Shown here: positions 78 through 5,156 of the stretch, in pieces
Position numbering within the stretch: the first letter of the stretch is position 1
Layout of the letters: the number at the start of each line of letters is the position of its first letter
Origin: Chloroflexota bacterium
GTDB lineage: Bacteria; Chloroflexota; Anaerolineae; Anaerolineales; Villigracilaceae
Reading direction: 5' to 3'
DNA: 5,156 nucleotides
Assembly (NCBI GenBank): GCA_023484185.1
Contig: JAMDBC010000128.1
Coordinates: 580 to 5,735 of the forward strand
Notes under the pieces: generated by a model
Database searches by the model: none
What the model was told of the DNA's origin: nothing
The model's input: the letters and a program-made list of their open reading frames with translations, nothing else
Program-made: the position numbers and the translations under genes

Positions 78-913
78 ATGACTTCAGTTACATCCAATAA
101 GAACAAATCGCAATCATCGCTCGGACTTTTTTTCAAGATCGCCGGCACGATTCTTTTGGTGGCGGGTTTCTTCATCGGTTCCATGTTGATATTATGGTTT
201 TCGCAAACCCCGCTTGGCGCGCCAATCGCAAACTCGCTCTCGGCGTTGTTTGCCGTGAACAGCGTCCAATCCTGGTGGTACGTCACACGCGCGGCCGGCC
301 TGACCTCCTATTTCCTGATGTGGCTTTCCATGGTGTGGGGCATGGCGGTGTCCACCAAGTTTTTTCATCCGGTCGTGGAAGGATCTCACTCCTATGACTT
401 TCATGAATTCCTGTCATTGCTCGGGCTTGGATTTGTCTTTCTGCACGTGGTGGTATTGATGTTCGATAAATTCCTGGCATTCAATATTTTTCAAATCCTG
501 ATCCCGTTCATCGACACGTATCGTCCATTATGGGTGGGAATCGGCATTATCGGGTTTTATACGTTCCTGCTGGTGACCGTAACTTTTTATTTGAGGAAGA
601 TCATCGGCATGCAGGCTTTCAGAAGCATCCACATGCTCAGCCTGCTGGGATATGTCTGCAGGCTTTCAGAAGCATCCACATGCTCAGCCTGCTGGGATAT
701 GTCGGCGCCACCCTGCACGGATTGTTTGCGGGCACCGACTCGGCGCTGGCCGTGACCAAGCTGCTTTATATCGGCACCTCGCTGGTGGTGGTCTTCCTGA
801 CCGTTTACTGGATCGTCATCGGCGTGATCACCAAACAGGAAATAGCACGCGCCGAGGCGCTGGCCGCCAGAGCCAAACGTCAGCCGCAGCGCTTGCGACC
901 CAATCAACGCTGA
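78..913 (+). pseudogene. Ferric-reductase-like transmembrane heme protein, frameshifted by a 47-bp tandem duplication
   Basis: As written, the frame from ATG 78 runs 225 codons to TGA 753-755, with a non-family tail after residue 193 (CRLSEAST onward). Removing one copy of the 47-bp repeat joins it to the frame ending with TGA 911-913 and gives a 262-residue protein. The restored protein has about six hydrophobic helices (near residues 16-40, 73-93, 108-130, 151-171, 184-204 and 211-235) and a basic C-terminal tail. Two helices carry paired histidines: H109/H123 (spacing 14) and H185/H198 (spacing 13). This is the bis-heme ligand pattern of ferric reductases and NADPH oxidases (gp91phox H101/H115 and H209/H222). 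The family moves electrons across the membrane through two b-type hemes. There is no flavin or NAD domain, so a separate partner would be needed. The truncated product loses H198 and the last helix, so it is probably non-functional unless the duplication is an assembly error or reverts. Start chosen by GGGAG at 66-70. Confidence 0.85.
610..703 (+). repeat. Perfect 47-bp tandem duplication inside the ferric-reductase-like gene
   Basis: Bases 610-656 and 657-703 are identical, with both units beginning TGCAGGCTTTC and ending GGGATATGTC. The unit length is not a multiple of three (remainder 2), so it shifts the reading frame. The bases flanking the two copies do not extend the match, so the novel joint shows no microhomology. 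Identity without a single difference implies a recent event or an assembly artefact. Confidence 0.95.
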
Positions 914-916
914 GAA

Positions 917-951
917 CAGCCCATCCAAACCTCTGGACGGGCTGCTTTTTT
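917..951 (+). terminator. Intrinsic (Rho-independent) terminator after the ferric-reductase-like gene
   Basis: Four bases past the stop codon at 911-913, the arm at 917-927 pairs with 934-944 (CAGCCCATCCA against TGGACGGGCTG). This forms an 11-bp stem with one A-C mismatch and a 6-base loop, followed after one C by six T at 946-951. It should end the transcript of the upstream gene and insulate it from the defence operon to the right. Confidence 0.9.
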
Positions 952-1083
952 AGCAGAGGGCTTACGGCTACAACCCTGAGCTTGACTCTTGCTGAACTGC
1001 GTCTGAAACGCCAGCATTTCCCCGTTCCCGCACAGTTCAAATGGTAAAATACATCGAGACAATCAACCTGGGAGCCAATACAA
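952..1083. other. Intergenic stretch between the terminator and the antitoxin remnant
   Basis: I see no gene here on either strand. Forward frames that cross it are continuations of the frameshifted gene's off frames and have no family resemblance. The only element I can support is the extended -10-like sequence near its right end, listed separately. Composition is still closer to the left-hand chromosomal gene than to the AT-rich genes to the right. Confidence 0.6.
1042..1050 (+). promoter_or_regulatory. Candidate extended -10 promoter ahead of the antitoxin remnant and defence operon
   Basis: TGGTAAAAT fits the extended -10 form (TGn followed by TATAAT-like TAAAAT). Such promoters can work without a good -35, and I see no convincing -35 at 16-18 bases upstream. 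Transcription would begin near 1056-1058, about 27 bases before the AbrB-type ATG at 1084. Because the antitoxin gene is now only a stub and no terminator follows, this promoter could read on into sduA, mod and res. Confidence 0.4.
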
Positions 1084-1182
1084 ATGGGTGTTGTCACGAT
1101 CTCATCCAGATACCAAATCACTGTCCCAAAGGAAAATAGAAACGGGGACAGGCAAGACGCGCACCGTGATGAGACTGATTGA
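1084..1182 (+). pseudogene. 5' remnant of an AbrB/MazE/SpoVT-type antitoxin gene
   Basis: ATG 1084 opens a 32-codon frame ending with TGA 1180-1182. Its first residues, MGVVTISSRYQITVPKENR, match the start of the swapped-hairpin AbrB fold (the usual wording is close to VTISSRYQVTIPKEVR). This domain binds DNA and, in VapB/MazE antitoxins, neutralises a downstream toxin. GGGAG at 1070-1074 is a well-placed ribosome binding site nine bases before the ATG. The match stops around base 1140. From there the frame reads through unrelated DNA (NGDRQDAHRDETD), so the second half of the fold and any C-terminal toxin-binding tail are missing. No toxin gene follows. A 32-residue peptide is unlikely to fold as AbrB. 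A small functional leader peptide is possible but has no support beyond the intact RBS. Confidence 0.7.
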
Positions 1183-1201
1183 AGTGTTCATGCGTTCCAA
1201 C

Positions 1202-1225
1202 CCTTCGACTTCGCTCAGGGCAGGT
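1202..1225 (+). repeat. Short dispersed repeat (CCTTCGACTTCGCTCAGG type), inserted in frame in the helicase fragment
   Basis: The sequence around 1201-1224 belongs to a short CCTTCGACTTCGCTCAGG-type sequence that I recall as widely dispersed in environmental bacterial genomes, often translated in frame as PSTSLRAG. Here it spans 24 bases, exactly eight codons, between the residues ...MRSN and QARR of the helicase fragment. Only one copy is visible in the window, so its repeat status rests on recall rather than on this sequence. Confidence 0.55.
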
Positions 1226-1243
1226 CAGGCCCGGCGGTATGTT

Positions 1244-1249
1244 AGGAGG
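1244..1249 (+). promoter_or_regulatory. Strong ribosome binding site of sduA
   Basis: AGGAGG is a full Shine-Dalgarno core, eight bases before ATG 1258. It fixes the start of sduA. It lies inside the end of the small frame 1169-1255, whose TAG falls two bases before the sduA ATG. Confidence 0.85.
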
Positions 1250-1257
1250 AAATAGCA

Positions 1258-2418
1258 ATGGCAAAGGAAATAAAAACCAAAGAAGGCTTCACTGTTTGGA
1301 AGGTAGACAAGGCGAAGAATACCTATGAATACTTTTTCAAACCAGATGGATCGCAGGGAAAATTAATTTCAAAGATTACATTTAAGAGCGCGACCAAAAA
1401 GCCTACAGGGTTAAACGGAAATGGCTTTGGCTTTTCCCGTCCGCTTCAACCCTTGTACTACTTGCTAAAAGATTACTTTACAAAGATAGACGAAATTGTT
1501 GTTGTACGGCAAAAATCAGAAATCAAAGGAAGGGTTATTTATTTCAGCAAAGATGAATATGAATCAATGACAAATTCCTTGATTACAACTTACAGGGAAA
1601 ATGCCAACAAACTAAAAGACTTGACTTTCAGGGAAATGAGCAACATATTCCCGAGAAGGTTCAAATCAAAAGAAAAGCCGTTTACATATACCGCAGGGAC
1701 TTTATCCCGTATTTTGGCGAGAAAAGGAATTGCCGACCAATTAAGTGACGATGATATTGCCAAGGTAGTTGAAATTATTCCTGGCTTGATGGATAGATCA
1801 TCGAAGGCAAAAACGGGATTGCTTTCGAGCATTCGATTTGCTGATATACGGAATAAATCAACAACTTATGAACTAAAAAAGATTGTTGACGAATACGACA
1901 GGCTCTTGAAAAAACGAAGCCAAAAGGAAAGTGAGTGGCAGGAGTTTTTCAAGAAGAATATGCTGTTTATCAATTCGGCGTATATAAAATTGATAGATAA
2001 AAAGAATATCAATATTACGGTCAGTATTCCCGATTTCTTATTGATAGACCAGTTTCAGTTTATCGATGTATTTGAAATCAAGAAGCCTGATTTTGAGTGC
2101 TTGAAATTCGACAAAAGCCACAAAAACTATTATTGGAGTACAGAAGCCAACATGGCAATTGCACAGGTCGAAAAATACTTGTTTGAACTTGAGCAAAACG
2201 CTTATTTGGTTGTCGCAGATTTGAGAAAGCAGAAAATTGACGTAAATATTATCAGACCTAGAGGATACGTTTTGATTGGCAAGCGTAGCGACTATGACGA
2301 GAATGCTCAGAATTCGTTTAAAATACTGAATGACTCTTTGAAGAATGTACAAGTCATCTTCTTTGACGATCTCCTGAACACGCTAAAAAGCAAGTATATT
2401 ATTATCAAGAAAAAATAA
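1258..2418 (+). CDS. sduA: Shedu anti-phage nuclease SduA (DUF4263, PD-(D/E)XK fold)
   Basis: This 386-residue soluble protein has two parts. The C-terminal part (about residues 205-370) matches the Shedu/DUF4263 domain. It opens with a short coiled-coil-like helix (YELKKIVDEYDRLLKKR) and the ESEWQEFFKKN helix (E226). D259 in SIPDFLL and E273/K275 in FEIKKP then form the D...ExK nuclease centre, followed by helix AIAQVEKYL (Q303) and the strand RPRGYVLIGKR. Shedu proteins are single-gene anti-phage systems that act as DNA nucleases. The N-terminal part (about 1-200) has no domain I recognise. In Shedu this region varies between members and is thought to sense the trigger, which is inference here. 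There is no signal peptide or membrane segment, so it is cytoplasmic. Start set by AGGAGG at 1244-1249. It stands 23 bp ahead of mod on the same strand and is much more AT-rich than the gene at 78, suggesting transfer. Alternative: an accessory nuclease of the adjacent type III system. Confidence 0.85.
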   Translation: MAKEIKTKEGFTVWKVDKAKNTYEYFFKPDGSQGKLISKITFKSATKKPTGLNGNGFGFSRPLQPLYYLLKDYFTKIDEIVVVRQKSEIKGRVIYFSKDEYESMTNSLITTYRENANKLKDLTFREMSNIFPRRFKSKEKPFTYTAGTLSRILARKGIADQLSDDDIAKVVEIIPGLMDRSSKAKTGLLSSIRFADIRNKSTTYELKKIVDEYDRLLKKRSQKESEWQEFFKKNMLFINSAYIKLIDKKNINITVSIPDFLLIDQFQFIDVFEIKKPDFECLKFDKSHKNYYWSTEANMAIAQVEKYLFELEQNAYLVVADLRKQKIDVNIIRPRGYVLIGKRSDYDENAQNSFKILNDSLKNVQVIFFDDLLNTLKSKYIIIKKK

Positions 2419-2430
2419 CCGGTTTTTTTT
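2411..2430 (+). other. A/T-rich palindrome spanning the end of sduA and the sduA-mod gap
   Basis: The left arm at 2411-2420 (AAAAATAACC) is the reverse complement of 2421-2430 (GGTTTTTTTT) apart from one base, centred on CCGG, and it includes the sduA stop codon TAA 2416-2418. It ends in eight T directly before the mod ribosome binding site GGAG at 2431-2434. As a hairpin it would be almost all A-U, so it is at best a weak attenuator or mRNA processing site. Chance in AT-rich DNA is quite possible. Confidence 0.3.
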
Positions 2431-2441
2431 GGAGACTCTTC

Positions 2442-4091
2442 ATGCCAACACTACAATTCAAAGGCAAGAACATTATTTGGAATCATCATCTCTCTGTGCC
2501 ATATCATGCATTGGATGATGTTTCAAAGTTGTCATATAAGCCTGAAATAGCCAATGGCAATTTGATTATAGAAGGGGATAATTTGCTGGCATTGAAGTCT
2601 TTACTGCCCCTGTATGCGGGACAGATACATTGTATTTACATTGACCCGCCCTACAACACAGGAAACGAGGGTTGGGTGTATAACGACAATGTAAACAGCC
2701 CGCTGATAAAAGATTGGCTAGGCAAAGAAGTAGGAAAAGACGACTTGACCCGCCACGACAAGTGGCTGTGCATGATGACGCCGAGACTCAAGTTGTTGCG
2801 TGACCTGTTAGCGGATGACGGGGCAATTTTTATTTCGATTGAAGATAATGAAGTTTACAACTTGAGGGCGGTGATGAATGAAATTTTTGGAGAAGAAAAT
2901 TTTGTTGCAGAATTCGTATGGAAAAAAAGAACTGGCTCAAACGACTCAAAAGAATTCTGGAGAACAACAGATCATGAATATGTTGTTTCTTACGCTAAAA
3001 CTAATCTGTTTCAATTTGCAGGAATAGAAAAAACCTTTTTAAATTATTCAAATCCCGACAATGACCCGCGAGGTGATTGGGCAGTTGATAACTTAACGTG
3101 TAATAAAACTTCTGCTGAACGACCTCATTTATTCTATGATATTACTGACCCGAAAACAAACATAACTTACAAATGTAACCCTAATCGTGTATGGGTTTAC
3201 GAGCCAGATAGGATGAAGCGTCTGATAAAAGAAGGAAAAGTGATTTTTCCCAAAGATGGGAAAGGAACCCCAACTTACAAACGTCATCTTTCAGAGGTGC
3301 GCTCAAACAAAAAGCCACTATCAACGTGGGTTATTTCAAGAAGCGAAAATGAAGAAATAGACGAAGAAATATTATCACTGCAATTTCCATTGAATATGGT
3401 TGCAACAAAACAATTAACCGAACTGATGGGAAGTTTAGTTTTTAATAATCCTAAATCAGTAGATATGATAAAACAGATTGTATATCAAGCAACTGATGTC
3501 GATTCAGTTATCCTAGACTCGTTTGCAGGTAGCGGCACAACAGCACATGCCATACTTGATTTGAACAAAGAAGATGGTGGCAATCGCAAATTCATCCTTG
3601 TTCAAATGACCGAAGCCACACCCGCTGAGCCAAAGAAAAACATTTGCAAAGATATTACTCGCGAGCGAGTCAAACGGGCAATTGATAAATTTGGTTATAA
3701 AAGTGGCTTCGAATATATGCGTGTTGGTTTGCCAATAGATTCGGAAAGTCTACTTGCAGGAAAATTACCAGTCATTGAGCAGTTCGGTAGTTATGTTTTC
3801 TTTTTATGCACAGGAGAGAAAACAACCAAGCCAGTCAAGTCGATTGAAAAAAACCTATATTTGGCTGGGTCTCAAGGAAATGCGGATATCTATCTCATTT
3901 ACAGCCAAGATTACGAAGAACTGACTCGATTGGCTTTAAATCTGGATTGGGCTGAAAAAATCGTAACTTCCGACAAGAAAAGATACATCGTCTATGCTCC
4001 CGCCTGCTTTTTGGATGAAGATTACTTGCGTTCCAAACAAATTGAATTCGTAAATATTCCGTATGGCTTGTTCCAACGCAAGGAAAATTAA
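2442..4091 (+). CDS. mod: Type III restriction-modification methyltransferase subunit (adenine-N6, beta class)
   Basis: This 549-residue protein is the modification and recognition subunit of a type III system. It would methylate adenine on one strand of its short asymmetric site using S-adenosylmethionine, and it guides Res. Motif order is that of beta-class enzymes. The region GNLIIEGDNLLALKSL (residues 39-54) comes first, then catalytic motif IV DPPYNTG (68-74) and LLADDGAIFISIEDNE (122-137). A long target-recognition region follows at about 155-330, including NPNRVWVYEPDRMKRLIKEG and FPKDGKGTPTYKRHLSEV. NNPKSV (335-340) comes next, then SAM-binding motif I LDSFAGSGTT (358-367), with a C-terminal tail beginning GFEYMRVGLP (422-431). 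The length is normal for Mod and all core motifs are intact. Start supported by GGAG at 2431-2434, seven bases before ATG. The res gene follows after 2 bp. The recognition sequence cannot be read from the protein. Confidence 0.92.
   Translation: MPTLQFKGKNIIWNHHLSVPYHALDDVSKLSYKPEIANGNLIIEGDNLLALKSLLPLYAGQIHCIYIDPPYNTGNEGWVYNDNVNSPLIKDWLGKEVGKDDLTRHDKWLCMMTPRLKLLRDLLADDGAIFISIEDNEVYNLRAVMNEIFGEENFVAEFVWKKRTGSNDSKEFWRTTDHEYVVSYAKTNLFQFAGIEKTFLNYSNPDNDPRGDWAVDNLTCNKTSAERPHLFYDITDPKTNITYKCNPNRVWVYEPDRMKRLIKEGKVIFPKDGKGTPTYKRHLSEVRSNKKPLSTWVISRSENEEIDEEILSLQFPLNMVATKQLTELMGSLVFNNPKSVDMIKQIVYQATDVDSVILDSFAGSGTTAHAILDLNKEDGGNRKFILVQMTEATPAEPKKNICKDITRERVKRAIDKFGYKSGFEYMRVGLPIDSESLLAGKLPVIEQFGSYVFFLCTGEKTTKPVKSIEKNLYLAGSQGNADIYLIYSQDYEELTRLALNLDWAEKIVTSDKKRYIVYAPACFLDEDYLRSKQIEFVNIPYGLFQRKEN
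4080..4084 (+). promoter_or_regulatory. Ribosome binding site of res inside the end of mod
   Basis: AAGGA lies nine bases before ATG 4094 and within the last codons of mod, whose TAA is at 4089-4091. The two-base gap and embedded site indicate translational coupling, as expected for subunits made in fixed proportion, and they decide the start of res. Confidence 0.7.
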
Positions 4092-4093
4092 GC

Positions 4094-5156
4094 ATGATAT
4101 TCCTGAAAGATTATCAAGTTAAAGTTGTTCGGGAATTGGAAAATTTCTTTTCGACTGCTTACGCAAAGAAAGCAGATATTGCCCGCGCACTTCAATCTGT
4201 GCCTGAAAATCTCCGTTCCACATTGGCGAATGTAGATTGGGTTGAGCAAACATTCACCCAGATGATGAAGCCCTATCACGATGTTTGCGTCAATGGGTTA
4301 AATGCACATTATCCGCGCATAGTATTGAAAGTTCCGACAGGAGGCGGGAAAACCTTACTGGCAGTTGAAGCCATTCGCGCCTATCAAAATCTTTTTGCCA
4401 AAAAGCACACTGGTCTTGTTGTGTGGATCGTCCCGACAGAAACAATTTACTCCCAAACGGTAGAAAAACTTCGCGATAAAAGTCACCATTTGCGCCAACT
4501 ACTAGACCAATGTAGCGGTAATCGAACTGTTATTCTTGAAAAAGGACAGCGGCTTACCACACAGGACATCGAAAACAATCTTGTGATTTTGTTTGTGATG
4601 ATTCAATCCATTAGCCGCGCCAATAACAAAGAAGCCTTGAAAGTCTTTCAAGATTCTGGCGGATATGAAAGTTTTTTTCCAGCGGACAATCGTTACGATT
4701 TACATTCTGGACTTTTACGCCAATTCCCAAATCTTGACTTCATTTCTGCACTCGGAACGTACAACCCGCTTATCAAAACAAGTTTAGGGAACGCAGTAAG
4801 GACAGCGCGACCTTTCATTATCATAGACGAAATTCACAAAGTTTTCTCCGATACAGCACGAGCAACAATCGACAGCCTTAACCCCGAAATGGTTTTAGGC
4901 TTGAGCGCAACACCCAAAAAAGAAATGAATATTCTTATCACCATTACAGGGCTTCAATTGAAAGACGCTGATATGGTGAAACTGGATATGCACATCTTTC
5001 CGCCTGCGAGTAAACAGAAAAACGATTGGCAGGCAATGGTACGTGAAATCAAAGGTCATCGAGAAAAACTGGAACAAAAAGCAAACACTCATCAAAAGAA
5101 AACAGGGATTTACATTCGCCCTATCGCGCTTATTCAGGTGGAACAAACTGGCAAAG
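4094..5156 (+). CDS. res: Type III restriction enzyme Res subunit, helicase part (3' end outside the window)
   Basis: The frame is open from ATG 4094 to the window edge (354 codons seen). The family is usually about 850-1000 residues, so most of it lies outside. It is a superfamily 2 ATPase that works with Mod to translocate or slide on DNA and cut unmodified sites. Visible motifs in order are LKDYQ (4-8), a Q-motif-like start; Walker A VPTGGGKT (80-87); motif Ia region WIVPTETI (111-118); motif II DEIHKVF (245-251); and motif III LSATP (270-274). KTSLGNAVRTARPFIIIDEIH and IYIRPIALIQVEQTGK (339-354) also follow the wording of Res-type helicases I know, although many relatives have DEGH where this one has DEIH. 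The C-terminal PD-(D/E)XK nuclease is expected beyond the window, so catalytic competence cannot be judged. It is coupled to mod by a 2-bp gap, with AAGGA at 4080-4084. Composition matches mod. Confidence 0.9.
   Translation, partial: MIFLKDYQVKVVRELENFFSTAYAKKADIARALQSVPENLRSTLANVDWVEQTFTQMMKPYHDVCVNGLNAHYPRIVLKVPTGGGKTLLAVEAIRAYQNLFAKKHTGLVVWIVPTETIYSQTVEKLRDKSHHLRQLLDQCSGNRTVILEKGQRLTTQDIENNLVILFVMIQSISRANNKEALKVFQDSGGYESFFPADNRYDLHSGLLRQFPNLDFISALGTYNPLIKTSLGNAVRTARPFIIIDEIHKVFSDTARATIDSLNPEMVLGLSATPKKEMNILITITGLQLKDADMVKLDMHIFPPASKQKNDWQAMVREIKGHREKLEQKANTHQKKTGIYIRPIALIQVEQTGK

Follow-up and report, generated by a model that had tools for sequence, protein, structure and literature searches.

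A 5,156-nt stretch of a Chloroflexota bacterium contig (JAMDBC010000128.1, positions 580 to 5,735, forward strand; assembly GCA_023484185.1), hereafter called the window, carries a gene for the Shedu nuclease SduA directly upstream of an ordinary type III restriction-modification pair, mod and res. As described in the initial annotation of this DNA, the listing of open reading frames (ORFs) placed sduA, mod and res in line on the + strand, 23 and 2 bp apart, and a stretch resembling a ribosome-binding site was observed ahead of each (Table 1). Each product is a typical representative of its family and, as far as it lies in the window, carries the family's core motifs. In 500-base windows, the GC content was 0.49–0.56 over positions 1–1250 and 0.35–0.42 from 1251 onward, the fall being located at about the start of sduA; the cluster is thus AT-rich and unlike its left flank, as had been claimed. 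No match to Rfam at gathering scores was obtained over the whole window.

Table 1. Features of the sduA-mod-res locus (positions in the window)
Feature	Position	Strand	Remarks
Stem-loop and T run after the flanking membrane-protein gene	917..951	+	Likely terminator; folding energy of 905-960, -24.7 kcal/mol
Gene scraps immediately upstream of sduA	1084..1255	+	AbrB/MazE-type antitoxin start; Walker A piece like restriction helicases
AGGAGG ribosome-binding site of sduA	1244..1249	+	Read from sequence
sduA	1258..2418	+	Shedu nuclease, 386 aa
Gap sduA/mod	2419..2441	+	23 bp; ribosome-binding-site-like GGAG at 2431-2434
mod	2442..4091	+	Type III adenine methyltransferase, 549 aa
Gap mod/res	4092..4093	+	2 bp; AAGGA at 4080-4084 within the end of mod
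res	4094..5156	+	Restriction subunit of the type III pair; 354 codons up to the window end, where the frame is still open

SduA matched the SduA_C family (PF14082, DUF4263) over residues 222–373 with 98.1 bits (cut-off 27) and the PADLOC SduA model with 109.8 bits. The PD-(D/E)XK-type active-site residues, as assigned by motif and not by structure, are intact: D259, K275 and Q303 were kept in all 46 aligned rows and E273 in 45 of them, with D in the remaining one. The N-terminal half matched no Pfam family, and the solved SduA chains aligned with residues 168–378 only (E values of 2e-5 and 6e-5). The close SduA family comprised 49 clusters including that of the window, the others being 46–84% identical; two clusters carried organism names, Chloroflexota and Anaerolineales, and both were from metagenome-assembled genomes (MAGs). 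With two named relatives of the flank gene among the 120 matches listed, they form the basis for taking Chloroflexota as the likely host phylum. Distant relatives with 26–34% identity were found at 29 loci in a search of species genomes, and a plasmid search gave 16 weak matches; no relatives were found in viral contigs or in the phages searched.

Mod matched N6_N4_Mtase (PF01555) with 110.3 bits (cut-off 26.7) and the PADLOC type III methylase model with 460.4 bits. Its motifs are in the beta-class order, DPPYNTG at residue 68 ahead of FAGSGT at 361, and it aligned with three solved Mod proteins (6k0w, 4zcf EcoP15I and 7dsu); 7999 relatives were scored, the best 120 of which were listed. The SF2-type helicase gene 2 bp after mod encodes Res, which matched ResIII (PF04851) with 71.8 bits (cut-off 22.5) and the PADLOC type III restriction enzyme model with 222.9 bits, and contains the helicase motifs GGGKT, DEIH and SAT. 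The C-terminal endonuclease part falls beyond the end of the window, and the 354 aa that were read had no solved relative at E 0.001.

Transcription signals were sought over positions 900–4300 on both strands by a consensus scan for terminator-like and promoter-like sites, with shuffled sequence as the control. Neither intergenic gap contained a terminator-like site, which bears out the earlier claim that no strong terminator separates the genes. Five such sites were found in all, versus 3.0 ± 1.9 in the shuffles, the sole one on the + strand being inside mod (2804–2822), and the only fold of region 2400–2445 is a weak stem of A/T pairs (-4.8 kcal/mol). The stem-loop at 917–951, although absent from the list of the consensus scan, is likely to act as a terminator that separates sduA and the genes after it from the left flank. 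Judging from the spacing and the terminator-free gaps, sduA, mod and res are probably carried on a single transcript, and read-through from sduA into mod is the simplest reading because the 23-bp gap lacks a terminator. The same point argues against plain neighbourhood, that is, sduA and mod-res being separate units that came to lie side by side in a defence island, with their own promoters and with neither expression nor function shared, which we regard as improbable. Two promoter-like sites near the start of mod (2375–2402 and 2430–2457) would suit separate units; however, the total of 11 promoter-like sites was at the chance level (8.4 ± 2.8 in the shuffles).

In the initial annotation, an adjacency seen only once was named as a finding that would refute its reading. 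Recurrence was surveyed in 94 stretches around Shedu genes, 3 to 19 kb long, 29 obtained from the SduA search and 65 fetched by the place of a Pfam match. Searches with PF14082 in six phyla had given matches in 13/299, 5/249, 19/247, 9/198, 11/149 and 6/145 genomes, and a seventh phylum, searched with the SduA alignment, in 4/286. Left out before the counts were one place each in G532, G1329, G1343 and G004, which were below the Pfam cut-off, and the genomes G578, G929, G1343 and G1358 with weak or partial matches. The exact order sduA-mod-res was found in none of the 94 loci, all of which were spanned by the Mod profile scan, with many stretches ending at contig ends. Four loci were matched by the Mod profile (L003, L005, L010 and L170), and in none was sduA directly ahead of mod; L003, a divergent fragment, and L170, a 377-aa methylase two genes off, were not counted as type III pairs. 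From the Mod side, the SduA profile detected no Shedu in 80 viral Mod loci (nothing up to E 10) or in the 6 plasmid Mod loci read, this profile recognising Shedu in 70 of the 94 Shedu loci (29/29 from the SduA search and 41/65 of those fetched by Pfam place). On a Thiothrix plasmid, the 386-aa protein encoded before mod was a candidate Shedu protein, but it gave no match to Pfam or to the SduA profile.

Longest-contig sizes were also compared. No size was common to the 59 SduA values and the best 120 of the 7999 Mod relatives, a comparison which short contigs or a distant linked Mod would escape, 15 of the 49 close SduA clusters having a contig of at least 8 kb; this argues against a widely co-inherited pair. 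A conserved three-gene sduA-mod-res system is thus not supported, and in the loci examined the exact order was indeed seen only once, in the window. Since the genomic contexts of the close SduA family (46–84% identity) lay outside the survey, this falls short of full refutation. The failure to find the order again in 94 loci counts in favour of plain neighbourhood.

Shedu genes in a looser association with restriction operons are present in the sample. The operon grouping covered 70 Shedu loci, and Shedu was inside or beside a restriction operon in at least 9 of the 94 loci, a lower bound with Pfam run on 60 chosen proteins of Shedu loci. Six of these operons are type I, two are type III-like and one is IIG-like, and the gene order differs among them. 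In L127, L136 and L142, Shedu lies between restriction genes. One of the type I cases (L017) was so classed on its hsdS neighbour alone, and its contig begins at sduA; in the IIG-like locus (L012), three ORFs separate the IIG-like genes from sduA. Both type III-like cases, each from a MAG, have the reverse order. In L010, where Shedu closely adjoins a type III-like set of methylase and helicase-nuclease genes, sduA follows the res-like gene by 7 bp if its start is the ATG at 7890, and in L005 an interval of about 1.8 kb with LexA/S24-like and T5orf172 genes lies between res and sduA. The best PADLOC Mod models differ (PDLC03644 for the window, PDLC03634 for L005 and PDLC03632 for L010), so the three look like separate assemblies and not one inherited operon. 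Of the proposed Shedu-type III pairing, then, a looser form stands, in the two reverse-order loci and the six type I loci, and the exact order does not.

Type I-style methylases were found within 3 kb of Shedu in at least 5 cases, versus 0.39 expected, an expectation calculated for uniform scatter with genome sizes rounded, the same-contig pairs being chosen by eye. This closeness speaks against plain neighbourhood, but the control ignores island clustering, which may explain part of it. Lodging in a restriction operon showed no link to a window-type, full-length SduA (5/31 versus 3/39, Fisher p 0.45, with L017 outside the count). Against a Shedu-restriction link, other tight neighbours were non-restriction genes, among them carbamoyl-phosphate synthase and sugar-dehydrogenase genes (L160), dihydroxy-acid dehydratase (L119), a recombinase (L004), Fic (L130), DruA (L009) and a Toll/interleukin-1 receptor (TIR) protein (L015).

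Several of these surroundings deserve description. In a Falkowbacteria genome (L009, 3740–9152), NurA-like, HerA-like (DUF87), DruA and Shedu genes form a single run. In L131 (5563–13661), Shedu is flanked, with tight packing, by a DEAD/ResIII helicase gene and a CoiA-nuclease-like/DUF6035/DUF7829 gene, a run that is possibly a multi-gene defence set. In L015 (7632–10243), Shedu is followed on the same strand by the gene for the TIR-domain protein. On a Methylomonas koyamae plasmid (L268, 1–9549), the BREX genes pglX and pglZ enclose two further genes, a PDDEXK gene and one for Shedu, which overlap the neighbouring genes by a few bases.

Shedu has been linked to BREX, according to a 2026 paper (PMC12839542). 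With this link and the plasmid Shedu between pglX and pglZ, the description of Shedu as a stand-alone system, from which the initial annotation started, is too strong. In the portions of the open-licence literature searched, Shedu was not found described as part of a type I or type III operon, which is weak evidence of novelty.

These associations bear on a coupled system, in which SduA would be an accessory effector of Mod-Res: DNA ends made by Res would feed an end-sensing SduA, or SduA would be a PrrC-like guard released when a phage blocks Mod-Res. The tight gene spacing and the Shedu genes between restriction genes in three loci are in its favour. E. coli SduA is reported to sense DNA ends and cut near them (PMC12904381), and Res would make such ends; PrrC, as described (PMC12707154), is a nuclease in a type IC restriction locus that is activated upon inhibition of the restriction enzyme. 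Against coupling, the exact pairing was not found again, partner type and gene order vary, and the closest SduA and listed Mod relatives had no longest-contig size in common. The N-terminal half of the window SduA differs from that of solved SduA, so end sensing is not transferable to it. A neighbour case dissected in Vibrio cholerae was independent. We consider a coupled system unlikely, though it is the main rival of the explanation favoured below.

A different accessory gene can occupy the slot before mod, as seen on a Chryseobacterium plasmid (L257), where a related mod-res, its Mod being about 40% identical, has an AAA_13 ATPase gene 4 bp ahead of mod. AAA_13 is the Pfam family containing PrrC, and this arrangement would suit a coupled system. 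On this plasmid, from Chryseobacterium oryzae, the genes for a helix-turn-helix (HTH) protein, the AAA_13 ATPase, Mod and Res are tightly ordered over 1591–8690, and the cluster is bordered on both sides by the same IS91-family transposase and integrase proteins, like a mobile cassette.

On balance, and with modest confidence, we favour two working defence modules that provide layered defence from one transcript, Shedu having been recruited beside mod-res in a defence island. A promoter between the 917–951 terminator and sduA would drive all three genes. Mod would mark host DNA at its site, and Mod and Res together would cut unmarked invader DNA. SduA would work independently, its N-terminal half sensing some phage-made DNA state and freeing the C-terminal nuclease, which would cut phages that escape restriction. 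Other Shedu genes seem to have been recruited in the same way, each time independently, next to operons of the type I, IIG-like, type III-like and BREX kinds.

Gene order, strand, gap lengths, terminator-free gaps and conserved catalytic residues count for two modules on one transcript, and the varying orders and partners in at least 9 of 94 loci fit interchangeable modules. A Shedu system adjoining a two-gene restriction operon in Vibrio cholerae was an independent system by genetic dissection (PMC12137116), which counts for independent modules. Several observations weigh the other way. The varying gene order fits plain neighbourhood equally well; the two promoter-like sites near the start of mod, from a total at chance level, sit uneasily with one transcript; the N-terminal half to which sensing is assigned lies outside the alignment with the solved chains; and the AAA_13 ATPase in the pre-mod slot fits a coupled system too.

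A broader reading, which we hold to be rather doubtful, is that Shedu is a recurrent accessory effector of methylase-based operons (type I, type III-like, IIG-like and BREX), independently recruited, which finishes DNA already cut or guards when the enzyme is blocked; the window would then be the type III case. Should Shedu prove to be a habitual companion of restriction operons, the two defences would be co-expressed and could assist one another.

Upstream of sduA, the scraps of other genes gave hits to MazE_antitoxin (E 0.0049) and to ResIII (E 0.015) that fall short of the Pfam cut-offs, and BLAST showed a weak similarity to HsdR of L013 (E 0.001). These scraps fit an island built by insertions, and their position at the left edge also suits plain neighbourhood. 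Within the Walker A scrap, positions 1201–1224 form a short imperfect palindrome, CCCTTCGACTTCGCTCAGGGCAGG, resembling a dispersed repeat. Farther left, a perfect 47-bp tandem duplication (610–703) causes a frameshift in the gene, starting at 78, for a ferric-reductase-like membrane protein; a recorded 262-aa protein (P0180) is identical to the flank protein over its first 190 residues, and the duplication is either a real mutation or an assembly error.

In comparison with known systems, the window SduA shares the C-terminal nuclease domain and conserved residues of Shedu (SduA, PF14082; 8ti8, 8ti9 and 8tia). It differs from solved Shedu in its restricted alignment, in an N-terminal half outside Pfam families and in preceding mod-res. 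The mod-res order, the Mod motifs and the Res helicase motifs are those of type III restriction-modification systems (6k0w, 4zcf EcoP15I and 7dsu); the window differs from these systems in that a Shedu gene is added directly upstream, the comparison of Res covering the helicase part alone. PrrC of the EcoprrI type IC locus (PMC12707154) is likewise a nuclease whose gene is lodged among restriction genes, as sduA lies 23 bp ahead of mod. PrrC is, however, an anticodon nuclease that acts on tRNA and is encoded within a type I locus, whereas the window SduA belongs to a DNA-nuclease-type fold family and its gene precedes a type III pair, with guarding putative. Shedu in BREX operons, as described in PMC12839542 and seen on the Methylomonas koyamae plasmid, resembles the window in lying within a methylase-based defence operon. 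This is different from the window in that the core genes are pglX and pglZ in place of type III mod-res.
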